From the NCBI GenBank assembly GCA_003054655.1, contig QAYZ01000013.1, forward strand, positions 310,001-374,000: a stretch of DNA of 64,000 bases. Direction: 5' to 3'. The stretch's first letter is position 1. Every line of letters starts with the position of its first letter. Position numbers and translations under genes: made by a program. Origin of the DNA: Spartobacteria bacterium LR76 (GTDB taxonomy: Bacteria > Verrucomicrobiota > Verrucomicrobiia > Chthoniobacterales > Terrimicrobiaceae). The notes below the pieces were generated by a model that worked only from the letters and a program-made list of their open reading frames with translations, was not told the origin of the DNA and searched no databases. This document shows positions 19,210-25,184 of this stretch, piece by piece.

Positions 19210-20505
19210 CTACACAAAGCCCAGCGACGGGAACTTCCGCCCCAACACGGCCTCGCTGGGCGCATGGAGCCAGTTGTCGAGCATCGTCGCGTAGACACTG
19301 CGGAAATCCACGGTGTAAATCAGGTCGCCGTCGCCGAGTTCGGTAAGGCTGGGCTGCGTCCCGTGCAAACCGGCCTTCACCTTTCCACCCAGGACAAACA
19401 TCGGAGCAGCCGCGCCGTGGTCGGTCCCCCCGCTGGCATTTTCCGACACGCGGCGGCCGAACTCGCTGAAGGTCATGATCGTTACGCGATCAAGGTTTCC
19501 CTGGGACTTGAGATCAGCCACAAAGGCACCAAGAGAAGCGTCCAGCTCCCCGAGGAGACGGTCGTGCGAACCAAGCTGCCCGCTGTGCGTGTCATACCCG
19601 CCCTGCGAGACGTAGTAAACCCGGGTGGGCAGCCCCCCGGCGATGAGCCGGGCCACGAGATTGAGATCGGTCGCGAGGCGGCCGCCGGGATAGGGAACCG
19701 GCGCCTTGGATTTGCGGGTGATCTCCAGGATGCGATCGGAGCTGATGCGGGCGTCCAGCGCCGTGCGCCTCACGAAATCCAGGGTATTGCCCTCGCCCTG
19801 CGCCTTGTCGCCCGACAGCGACTGAACGGAGCCGCCGGAGTTATCGGAGAAGCTCGTCATGTCGGCAAAGGCCTCTCCCGCCGCCGGATCGTTGGAAATA
19901 AAGCGAAACTGGTCGGGCCGCGAAAGCGTGATCCCGGCTCCGGCGCTGCCGGAAAAGGATAACGGAGTCTCCGAGCCGATCGACACCCCGACGACGGGGT
20001 CTTCCCCCTTGCAGCAGGAGTCGAAGTAGTTCGCCAGCCAGCCTTTGTTGGCAAACTTGCTGGAATCCGTCGCCGTCTGCCAGATGTCGGTCGAGCGAAA
20101 GTGCGAGCGGTTGGGGTTGGGATACCCGACGCCCTGGATGACGCCGAGACGCCCCTCGTCATAAAATCCGCGCAGGGTTTTCAGCCTGGGATGCAGCCCG
20201 ATGTGGTCGTCGACCTTGAGCACATTGCCCGCCGCGATGCCGATCTTGGGGCGGGCGCGGTAATACGCGTCGTCGGCATAGGGCACGACCATGTTCAGGC
20301 CGTCGTTGCCCCCCGCCATCTGGAGGATGACCAGGATGGGGCCATCCTTGCCTGTCGCCACCTGCACGGCGGAATCCGCCGCCGCGGCGTCGAGGGCAAA
20401 GAAGGTCTTTTCGATAAAGGCGGGAAGCGTCCAGGCCATGGCGCCGCCCAATACGCCGGTGCGGAGGAACTGCCTGCGGGTGCGTAACGTCTGTTCGTCG
20501 CTCAT
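19210..20505 (-). CDS. DUF1501 protein, Tat-exported
   Basis: A 431-residue protein of the DUF1501 (sulfatase-like fold) family, common in Planctomycetes/Verrucomicrobia and in some marine proteobacteria. A twin-arginine leader (RTRRQFLRTGVLGGA) and a hydrophobic core predict Tat export. Family marks include ILQMAGGNDGLNMVVPY, VGYPNPNRSHFRSTDIWQTA and TFSEFGRRVSENASGGTDHG. Function is unknown; the family is almost always paired with DUF1800, as here, where its ATG overlaps the DUF1800 stop (ATGA). ATG 20503-20505 starts directly before the Tat motif. Confidence 0.92.
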   Translation of the reverse strand: MSDEQTLRTRRQFLRTGVLGGAMAWTLPAFIEKTFFALDAAAADSAVQVATGKDGPILVILQMAGGNDGLNMVVPYADDAYYRARPKIGIAAGNVLKVDDHIGLHPRLKTLRGFYDEGRLGVIQGVGYPNPNRSHFRSTDIWQTATDSSKFANKGWLANYFDSCCKGEDPVVGVSIGSETPLSFSGSAGAGITLSRPDQFRFISNDPAAGEAFADMTSFSDNSGGSVQSLSGDKAQGEGNTLDFVRRTALDARISSDRILEITRKSKAPVPYPGGRLATDLNLVARLIAGGLPTRVYYVSQGGYDTHSGQLGSHDRLLGELDASLGAFVADLKSQGNLDRVTIMTFSEFGRRVSENASGGTDHGAAAPMFVLGGKVKAGLHGTQPSLTELGDGDLIYTVDFRSVYATMLDNWLHAPSEAVLGRKFPSLGFV

Positions 20506-21929
20506 GTGAGTTGGAACTCCGGTGTGCTCATGATGAGATGCGCGCAGTCTCTCACCGCGGCATCGTTGATTTCGGGTCCGCGCTTGATGAGGAACGCCAC
20601 CACCTTCTGGCGGTCGGCGGGTTCCAGCGGGACATTGAGTAAACGAAAAGCGAGAGAATCGCACAGCTCCTCGGGATTTTTCCTCATGCTCGCCGGGGCG
20701 ACACGCCCCCACTCCACCGGGATGGCATCGCGGGACTTTTCGAGCGGCTTGTCATCCGCTCCGGCGATGGTCCCGGCGAGATTGCAGCGCAGAAGGTAGG
20801 TAGACCCGTTGATCCAACTGCGTCCGCCCGCCCAGCCCTTGACATTCGGCGGGGCGAAGAGCACCTGCCCCATGGAGCGCAGCATGAACTCGCAGGCGTT
20901 CGGCGGCGGCAACGGTGCCTCCAGCGATTGGGAAATCTGCACGAGCCACTGCACCGGGCTTTTCACCTGACGGCGTACGACCTGCGGGAAATAAAACTCC
21001 GGGCTGAGGAGGATCTCCCGCAGCAGCGGCTTGAGCTCGTATCGGGAATCCTGGAAGTGCCGGGCCAGCCGGGCATGCAGGTCCGGTCCAGGCTCAGTCC
21101 CGGCGAGATAAACCCAGATCTTTCGAGAAATGAAGGTGGCACACTCGGGCTGCTCGCAGATGATGTCGATCACGTCGTCGCCATTCCAGTTCCCGGTGCG
21201 GCCAAGGAAGGTTTTCCCGGTTTGATCGGCAGCCTTGGGCTGATAGCGGAAGACCCCGGAGGCCGGAGTGATCCGATAGCCCGTGAGAGCGCGGGCGGCC
21301 TCGCGCACATCAGCCTCCGTGTACCGCACCCCTTCGCCCAGCGTGAAAAGCTCCATCAGCTCGCGGGCAAAATTCTCGTTGGGCCGCCTGGCCTCGCTGC
21401 GGTTGAGATCGAGATACCGCATCATCGCGGGATCGCGGGAGACATCCTTGGTCAGCGAATTGAAGTTCCCCAGCGCATGCGTGCGGAACGTCTCATTCTG
21501 CTGATACATCAGATTGGCGCTGTTTACCTTATCGAAGCTGGCGGCAAAGTGCCCATGCCAGAAAAGCGTCATCTTTTCCCGCAGGGGATACCGTGTGTAG
21601 CGCATGCGCTGGAGCCACCAGGCCCGCACGGCGCGAAGCTGCTCGTCCTGCGCGCGGCGAAGTTCCCCCAGGATCTCCCGCTTCTCCTCTCCCTCGGCCA
21701 TCATGTTGGCCTGGCGAAAAGCCCAATAGGCTTCAGCCACTGGTGTCAGCTCGGGAGGGGGAAAAATATCCGTGTCCTCGTCCCCGGCCAGCAGGTACTC
21801 CACGGCGCCTGCACGGCCCATGGCGTGAAGGGAGGAAATACTCCCAGGCGATCCCCCAAAGCCTGCCCGACTCAGCAGATGAGCCGCTAGCAAGGGAGTC
21901 CAAGCTTCGCTGGATTTCGTCGCGGGCAT
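20502..21929 (-). CDS. DUF1800 family protein
   Basis: A 475-residue DUF1800 protein, always helical and of unknown biochemical role. Typical stretches are LLSRAGFGGSPGSISSL at the start, REKMTLFWHGHFAAS, NENFARELMELFTLGEGV and the LLREILLSPEFYF region. No signal peptide is clear. It is the first gene of the DUF1800-DUF1501 pair and the two are translationally coupled. In other bacteria the pair is linked to surface or outer-membrane functions, but I know of no firm assay. Confidence 0.9.
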   Translation of the reverse strand: MPATKSSEAWTPLLAAHLLSRAGFGGSPGSISSLHAMGRAGAVEYLLAGDEDTDIFPPPELTPVAEAYWAFRQANMMAEGEEKREILGELRRAQDEQLRAVRAWWLQRMRYTRYPLREKMTLFWHGHFAASFDKVNSANLMYQQNETFRTHALGNFNSLTKDVSRDPAMMRYLDLNRSEARRPNENFARELMELFTLGEGVRYTEADVREAARALTGYRITPASGVFRYQPKAADQTGKTFLGRTGNWNGDDVIDIICEQPECATFISRKIWVYLAGTEPGPDLHARLARHFQDSRYELKPLLREILLSPEFYFPQVVRRQVKSPVQWLVQISQSLEAPLPPPNACEFMLRSMGQVLFAPPNVKGWAGGRSWINGSTYLLRCNLAGTIAGADDKPLEKSRDAIPVEWGRVAPASMRKNPEELCDSLAFRLLNVPLEPADRQKVVAFLIKRGPEINDAAVRDCAHLIMSTPEFQLT

Positions 21930-23396: not shown

Positions 23397-24518
23397 TCAG
23401 CGCCGCTTTCTCCGCGATGCGACGGGAAGCACCACCAGCAATGCACAGGCCAGCAGAGCCCAGGTCGAGGGTTCCGGCACCGGCACCAGCGTGAGCACGG
23501 CCGATTCCAGATCATACATGACGATGTAGTTCTCGAAGAGATAGCCGCCGGAGTTCACCCGATTTTCGCTCGGCGCCTGATTCCCTATCACCGCCACCGA
23601 GCCGCCCCAGGGACTGCTGCCGCTCCACGACTCGATCGTCTCGCCACCGGGGACCGAAAGGGTGAAAGACCCATTGGGCAGGTAGCCAGCAAAAGCATCC
23701 GGCGGATTGCTGTTATTCCCGTAATAAATCACGCCGTTGGGGCCCCCACCCGTATCGAAAACCGTGGCCAGATCCTGCGAAGCCGGGCCGCTGGATGTCT
23801 GAACCGTGACGCTGGTCACCGCGACACCCTTGAGATAGCCGGTGATCAAACGCCCATCCGGACCCTGGATTTGATCATTCGAGTGGTTCATGTGGAGCTG
23901 GATCGCTCCCGGCGCATTCGTCAGGGTGGAAATGGTCTCTGGCGTGAGGCCGATGGTGAGAGAGCCGGTGCCGGAGGAAATCCCGGCGACGTTTACCACA
24001 TAGCCCAGGTGGGAGCCGCTTCCCAGGGGAATGGCCGTGAGCAGCGTGCTCAGCGTGCTCGTGCCGTAGAAACCCGCTCCAAAATCTCCATACGTTCCGT
24101 CCGCGAGCGGCACATTGCTCGGAACTTCGTTTCCATTGATCTGGACGACCATGGCCGTGTTGAAATTTGAGACCACCGGGGTGATCGGCGTGGAGGTTTT
24201 CGTCGTGAGGGTCAGGTTCTGGCCCTGGACATAATAGCTGTAGACCGGATTTCCATCGCCGAAGGCAAAGGAATCGGTGGGAGTGATCCCTGTATTGGTC
24301 CCCTGAACCGTGAACATGTTCGGCGAGCCCGTGTCGAAAAGATACGGGACGGCATTACTGCCATCCGCATTCTGGCTCACATAGATCTGATAGTTGGTGG
24401 GAGTATGGTTTCCAGTGACGTAAATCGGGACAGTGTAACTGGCTTCCTGCGCCCAGGCGGATGCCGTAGCCACCGTCATTCCCATCGCCAGCGCCATGCC
24501 ACGAATCGCATTTCCCAT
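23397..24518 (-). CDS. PEP-CTERM protein with pepsin-like aspartic protease motifs
   Basis: A 373-residue exported protein. The signal peptide is MGNAIRGMALAMGMTVATAS and the C-terminus is a PEP-CTERM sorting tail (VPEPSTWALLACALLVV, then SRRKRR), which exosortase would process. Two Asp-Thr-Gly motifs, YLFDTGSPNMF (Asp62) and ATVFDTGGGPN (Asp255), are 193 residues apart, similar to the two catalytic aspartates of bilobal pepsins. The intervening sequence is Ser/Thr/Gly-rich beta. This suggests an aspartic-protease fold displayed at the surface; activity is untested. No exosortase gene is in the window. An earlier ATG at 24554 is possible but weakens the signal peptide. Confidence 0.75.
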   Translation of the reverse strand: MGNAIRGMALAMGMTVATASAWAQEASYTVPIYVTGNHTPTNYQIYVSQNADGSNAVPYLFDTGSPNMFTVQGTNTGITPTDSFAFGDGNPVYSYYVQGQNLTLTTKTSTPITPVVSNFNTAMVVQINGNEVPSNVPLADGTYGDFGAGFYGTSTLSTLLTAIPLGSGSHLGYVVNVAGISSGTGSLTIGLTPETISTLTNAPGAIQLHMNHSNDQIQGPDGRLITGYLKGVAVTSVTVQTSSGPASQDLATVFDTGGGPNGVIYYGNNSNPPDAFAGYLPNGSFTLSVPGGETIESWSGSSPWGGSVAVIGNQAPSENRVNSGGYLFENYIVMYDLESAVLTLVPVPEPSTWALLACALLVVLPVASRRKRR

Positions 24519-24560
24519 TTCCGTGCGATAGCACAGCGCAACCCGGCGCGCCATGGGGAA

Positions 24561-25184
24561 TTGCGGATTACTTCGGCAGAGAGCTCCTCCCCGCTCAGAG
24601 CGCTAAGCCATTGCGCGCTTGGCAGGCAAAGCCTCTGCGGTCGCTCATCGGCGGCAGCCTCCGGGAATGTCTTCGGCGGCAAAGATCTCCCCGCCCTCGC
24701 CGCAACGAACAAGGATGCCCACATCTACCGGCTGACCGTTCTCCGTCCGTCGCAATCTCCGGTGCTCATCGAAATCTCGGCCGGCGGCGAATCTCCTTCG
24801 CTAACTGTGAAGGAAATCCAAAGCGAAAGCAAAGGCCCGGGCTCCAGGCGCACCTATCTTGTTTCCAGCAAAGTGATCAAGCTTAGCAAGAAACAGCTTA
24901 ACTCCCTGCTCAAGGAGCTGGATAACGCGTCGTTCTGGACGCTTCCCTGCGCAGACTGGAAATCCCCGGGGCCGAAGGGTTCCGAGCGGAAGCTGGAAGC
25001 CGTCCGCGACGGAAAGTATCACCAGCTCACCCGCTGCAGCCCCTTCCGCGCCGTGAGCAAGTCCTGTCCCGAGAAGAAATCCATGGGCCAGGACTGCAAA
25101 CGGGCCTGCAATGAAGGCGACCTGCTGTGCGTGTTGAGCTGCCTGTGGAAACTCTCCGGAGAATCCTGCCAGGGGCTCAACTAG
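24561..25184 (+). CDS. Cys-rich hypothetical protein, start uncertain
   Basis: The C-terminal ~140 residues look like a real protein: KLSKKQLNSLLKELDNASFW, then an 'FWTLP...KLEAVRDGKYHQLTRCSP' pattern seen in many small exported hypothetical proteins, then a Cys-rich end (CPEKKSMGQDC, CKRACNEGDLLCVLSCL). The N-terminus is doubtful. The frame is open from 24405, but that part lies antisense to the PEP-CTERM gene; the only plausible starts are TTG 24561 or an unusual codon later. No clean signal peptide could be found, so a frameshift near 24600-24690 is possible. Function unknown. Confidence 0.55.
   Translation: MRITSAESSSPLRALSHCALGRQSLCGRSSAAASGNVFGGKDLPALAATNKDAHIYRLTVLRPSQSPVLIEISAGGESPSLTVKEIQSESKGPGSRRTYLVSSKVIKLSKKQLNSLLKELDNASFWTLPCADWKSPGPKGSERKLEAVRDGKYHQLTRCSPFRAVSKSCPEKKSMGQDCKRACNEGDLLCVLSCLWKLSGESCQGLN

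Follow-up and report, generated by a model that had tools for sequence, protein, structure and literature searches.

A PEP-CTERM protein of a Verrucomicrobiota bacterium with probable kinship to pepsin-like aspartic proteases

We analyzed a 64,000 nt stretch of the Spartobacteria bacterium LR76 genome (contig QAYZ01000013.1, positions 310,001 to 374,000), in the following called the window, with a focus on the protein P0001, which is encoded at 23397..24518 on the minus strand (373 aa, intact open reading frame, start at 24518). P0001 carries two Asp-Thr-Gly (DTG) motifs and a PEP-CTERM sorting tail. Comparison with its relatives makes a pepsin-like fold very likely. We favor the view, with somewhat more confidence than doubt, that P0001 is an exosortase-sorted, envelope-anchored aspartic endopeptidase. 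The initial annotation had spoken of a surface-displayed protease; of what this term implies, the tail and an exosortase in the genome were observed, and we infer the fold, location, catalysis and substrates.

The sequence of P0001 agreed with the initial annotation in the presence of DTGS at Asp62 and DTGG at Asp255, in their spacing of 193 residues and in the hydrophobic stretch before each motif (VPYLF-DTGS and LATVF-DTGG). The first putative catalytic motif, D62-T-G-S65, lies at 24324..24335 (-) and the second, D255-T-G-G258, at 23745..23756 (-). By a rough estimate from average residue frequencies, two DTG motifs occur by chance in a protein of this length with a probability of about 0.004, and since the genome has 79 PEP-CTERM matches, the two motifs alone are weak evidence. 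We aligned 16 family members from Verrucomicrobiota, including three paralogues from the genome of P0001. Identity was 18-26% outside the orthologue group, and 13 columns were invariant, five of them being D62, T63, G64, D255 and G257. This conservation across the homologues ruled out a chance origin of the motifs. Orthologues of P0001 were found in two near relatives (L013 and L048, 80% and 85% identity). The ratio of nonsynonymous to synonymous substitution rates (dN/dS) versus these two was 0.11-0.13 overall, indicating strong purifying selection, with the lowest values, 0.07-0.08, in the two segments around the DTG motifs.

The 16-member profile was searched against 177,635 PDB sequences. 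All 29 matches belonged to MEROPS family A1 (plasmepsins, candidapepsins, renin, pepsin, cathepsin D and saccharopepsin), with plasmepsin-1 as the best match (E-value 0.0014); the matches are mutually related and represent one coherent signal rather than 29 independent ones. The same was seen for a 13-member version of the profile (17 of 17 matches in A1). The match covered the N-terminal lobe with the first DTG motif and the flap. At the other end of the protein, profile-profile alignment by hhalign with porcine pepsin (sequence checked against 3pep) placed SGGYLFENYIVMYDLESAVLTLVPV in register with pepsin residues 301-325 (E-values 1.2e-4 to 1.8e-4). This A1-like C-terminal signature comprises residues 322-347 of P0001, NSGGYLFENYIVMYDLESAVLTLVPV, at 23478..23555 (-). 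After removal of the PEP-CTERM tail, the pepsin alignment score was 37.2, compared to a maximum of 21.2 in 200 pepsin shuffles. Since the N-lobe profile and the C-terminal signature both matched, both ends of the protein are tied to pepsins, and in the same order. The C-lobe profile alone had plasmepsin V on top, with a weak E-value of 0.46. By its position, its invariance and the similarity of its flanks, the second DTG motif probably corresponds to Asp215 of pepsin.

Individual relatives gave further matches. The paralogues matched the Pfam family Asp (PF00026) with E-values of 0.0014-0.011, and the family member L020 reached 18.6 bits, below the cut-off of 19.9. L027 matched PE-PGRS_C (PF20729; E-value 4.3e-6, 26.7 bits, cut-off 33), the PecA model NF038019 of NCBIfam (1.8e-4, 20.9 bits, cut-off 150) and PDB entry 4ehc (2.4e-4). 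Because the scores are below the tested protease cut-offs of Pfam and NCBIfam, annotation misses the family as proteases. PF00026 had no match among 288 genomes from the phylum; as control genomes gave none either, this does not prove absence. The profile searches that the initial annotation had proposed thus returned A1 similarity, and together with the profile-profile comparison and the paralogues they supported its bilobal pepsin-like reading.

The PEP-CTERM tail recognized in the initial annotation was also confirmed. It consists of VPEP, a hydrophobic helix and RRKRR at the C-terminal end (VPEPSTWALLACALLVVLPVASRRKRR; 23400..23480 (-); PF07589). The genome scan gave it 22.7 bits and thus more than the cut-off of 20.7, while hmmscan gave 19.1 bits, slightly less than the cut-off. 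The features of a PEP-CTERM protein are all present: the motif with helix and basic cluster, a signal peptide and a genomic exosortase. The signal peptide, read from the sequence, comprises about residues 1-24 (MGNAIRGMALAMGMTVATASAWAQ, ending in ATASAWAQ; 24447..24518 (-)). The exosortase (PF09721, E-value 1.1e-44) is encoded in the same genome at G000:C10:566938-567723, and this single EpsH-type match stands against the 79 PEP-CTERM matches. P0002, a paralogue of P0001, and the relatives L014 and L049 matched the NCBIfam model floc_PepA (flocculation-associated PEP-CTERM protein) in their C-terminal half with E-values of 4.5e-7 to 9e-5. We attribute these matches mainly to the tail and to beta segments of low complexity; they may reflect more than the tail.

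We compared the active-site region with the definition of family A1 given in PMC2761423. The first motif of P0001, LFDTGS, agrees with it. Several other features weigh against a working pepsin-like protease. In the second motif (VFDTGG), Gly replaces the final Ser or Thr; renin and marine bacterial homologues also depart at this place, with Ala (PMC4814920). The flap-equivalent FAFGDG (residues 84-89, 24252..24269 (-)) has Phe86 at the place of the flap Tyr, and Phe is found throughout the window clade (three orthologues) and in paralogue L039. Tyr is present in 12 of the 16 family members, and the flap of paralogue P0002, YGTGS, is identical to that of pepsin. Both hydrophobic-hydrophobic-Gly motifs of the psi-loops are altered in P0001, to DFG and NSG, with the Gly of both invariant in the family. 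The first of them is part of the G-loop of the first lobe, TYGDFGAG (residues 142-149, 24072..24095 (-)), in which G144 and G147 are invariant. Because of the deviating second motif, flap Tyr and hydrophobic-hydrophobic-Gly motifs, P0001 is not a canonical A1 member. It looks descended from the pepsin-like group and probably works like it.

To the same side of the balance belong further results. In the tree, a long stem branch (2.19 changes per site) leads to the window clade, so that its function may have shifted and its activity changed or been lost. P0001 alone had no Pfam or PDB match besides the tail, so that the evidence for its fold comes entirely through its family; phmmer searches of PDB with P0001 and P0002 singly also returned nothing meaningful. 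By hhalign the middle of P0001, including the second DTG motif, had no confident alignment to pepsin. AlphaFold models were of very low confidence, with predicted local distance difference test (pLDDT) values of 33.2 for P0001 as single sequence and 32.7 for four aligned sequences with L049 in the lead; L049 is the counterpart, in a metagenome-assembled genome, of the C11 paralogue of P0001. A Foldseek search with the L049-led model gave no match below an E-value of 0.3 and was uninformative.

A first alternative is that P0001 kept the pepsin-like fold and lost the protease function, being now a surface binding or structural protein in which the DTG loops are retained for structural reasons. 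We consider this possible, if clearly less probable than an active enzyme. In its favor are the long stem branch, Phe in the flap of all three orthologues, Gly at the equivalent of position 218 and the replacement of the second hydrophobic-hydrophobic-Gly motif by NSG. Non-peptidase homologues exist in family A1 (PMC2761423), and PE_PGRS16 had no detected activity despite its fold, but its homologue PecA is active (PMC6819658). The finding that dN/dS was lowest just in the motif-bearing segments also speaks against a loss of function.

Alternatively, P0001 might be a generic beta-rich PEP-CTERM matrix protein with two fortuitous DTG motifs and no relation to pepsins. The many PEP-CTERM matches of the genome, the lack of any peptidase match for P0001 itself, the pLDDT values of about 33 and the weak floc_PepA matches, which illustrate how tails and low-complexity beta segments draw PEP-CTERM models, all fit this explanation. 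It is nevertheless improbable: both motifs are invariant in the family, all matches among PDB sequences belong to A1, the tail-free pepsin score is well above that of the shuffles, and the tail-less member L027 matches PecA and PE_PGRS16. A two-domain retropepsin-like protein of the Asp_protease_2 type (PF13650) instead of a monomeric pepsin-like enzyme is hardly credible: two-domain PF13650 proteins occur in the same class (L052, L054 and L056) and distant members have marginal PF13650 matches (E-value 0.008 for the second gene of L064 and 0.095 for L063), but P0001 and its close relatives have none, the family profile matches A1 and not A2 structures, and the terminal signature is collinear with pepsin.

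If P0001 is an exosortase-sorted aspartic endopeptidase, as we prefer, the signal peptide would export it, and the exosortase of the genome would process it at the PEP-CTERM tail, so that the protein would finally reside within the outer envelope or on it. The residues Asp62 and Asp255 would lie on two psi-loops and face each other across the cleft of a bilobal clan AA fold, a geometry that we infer from the sequence comparisons. The two residues would activate a water molecule for peptide cleavage. The enzyme would probably act on a small number of proteins that are exported or belong to the envelope, and not on bulk protein.

P0001 and three full-length paralogues in the same genome (C11:834651, C16:63398 and C13:693426) make four related proteins. 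The family is sparse. A search of the class (286 genomes) gave matches in 13 at an E-value of 1e-6, in several through the tail alone, and a search of the phylum (377 genomes) gave matches in 5 at 1e-7. A scan of viral contigs revealed no relative. The PEP-CTERM tail is absent from L026 and L027, the latter having a Big_7 domain in its place, and likewise from L063 to L065. Since these members have no such tail, the conserved body of the family cannot be put down to it. In L063 (1381-2481 and 2489-3499) and L064 (1444-2511 and 2524-3519), which belong to another Verrucomicrobiota genus, two genes are adjacent. Each of the encoded proteins has two DTG motifs and the C-terminal signature N-T-G-[IL] and no PEP-CTERM tail, and each pair is a tandem of putative genes for family-like aspartic proteases, as judged from these motifs. 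In other Verrucomicrobiota, L051-L056 encode two-domain retropepsin-like proteins (with PF13650 in the three mentioned above) that have weak PE-PGRS_C matches.

An in-frame ATG at 24554, 12 codons (36 bases) upstream of the start, would extend P0001 to 385 aa, and similar codons are kept across this stretch in an orthologue. The L013 orthologue has the same flanking genes as P0001; one encodes a membrane protein of the PF03601 family, the other a beta-CASP metallo-hydrolase. The start of P0001 is overlapped on the opposite strand by an open reading frame of 259 aa (24405-25181 (+)) that has no Pfam match. No counterpart of at least 250 aa is listed at the orthologous locus L013, and the open reading frame may not be a gene over its full length. 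Elsewhere in the window, at 19213-21929 (-), DUF1501 and DUF1800 genes lie side by side, a pair of unknown function.

Bilobal pepsin-like aspartic proteases were long regarded as eukaryotic. Bacterial members of A1 were described in 2009; these have no signal peptide and are predicted to be intracellular (PMC2761423), and shewasin D is mainly cytosolic (PMC4814920). With A1 enzymes such as pepsin, plasmepsin and the bacterial shewasins, P0001 shares two DTG motifs about 190 residues apart (183 in pepsin) and, through its family, the profile similarity of the N-lobe and the C-terminal signature. P0001 differs from them by the flap Phe, Gly at 218, the altered hydrophobic-hydrophobic-Gly motifs and the lack of cysteines in the mature body. 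The retropepsin-like bacterial proteases (PF13650, APRc and the P. aeruginosa enzymes) are also bacterial and have a DTG-type catalytic motif, but they are one-lobe domains, and P0001 has no PF13650 match. In its signal peptide, in VPEP with hydrophobic helix and basic tail, and in the genomic exosortase P0001 resembles PEP-CTERM/exosortase substrates. We found no description in the open-access literature of a PEP-CTERM tail joined to a pepsin-like body or an aspartic protease. A family of this kind would give a concrete candidate function to some of the numerous PEP-CTERM proteins with bodies of no known role.

By analogy, the closest functional counterpart of the P0001 family would be the mycobacterial PecA, the one example of a surface-located bacterial pepsin-like protease that we found in the open-access literature. 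PecA is active, is located at the surface and cuts itself and other PE proteins (PMC6819658). The domain of PecA, PE_PGRS16 and PE_PGRS35 (PF20729; NF038019; 4ehc) is, like the proposed P0001 body, a bacterial, exported, surface-associated, bilobal acid-protease domain, and its DTG and DSG motifs are about 177 residues apart (PMC6819658), compared to 193 residues between the DTG motifs of P0001. P0001 itself has no match to PF20729 or NF038019, and the likeness of the family to PE-PGRS_C comes via L027 and is below cut-offs. The routes to the surface would be unrelated: PecA carries a PE domain and is exported by type VII secretion, while the P0001 family has a Sec-type signal peptide and the PEP-CTERM/exosortase system. 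It is tempting, if speculative, to assume that the four paralogues are exosortase-sorted pepsin-like proteases that process exported or PEP-CTERM proteins at the Gram-negative envelope, as PecA does with PE proteins. A secreted, envelope-sorted group in Verrucomicrobiota would broaden the range of places where the pepsin-like fold operates in bacteria, and the P0001 family would represent deep branches that bear on the origin of the bilobal enzyme.
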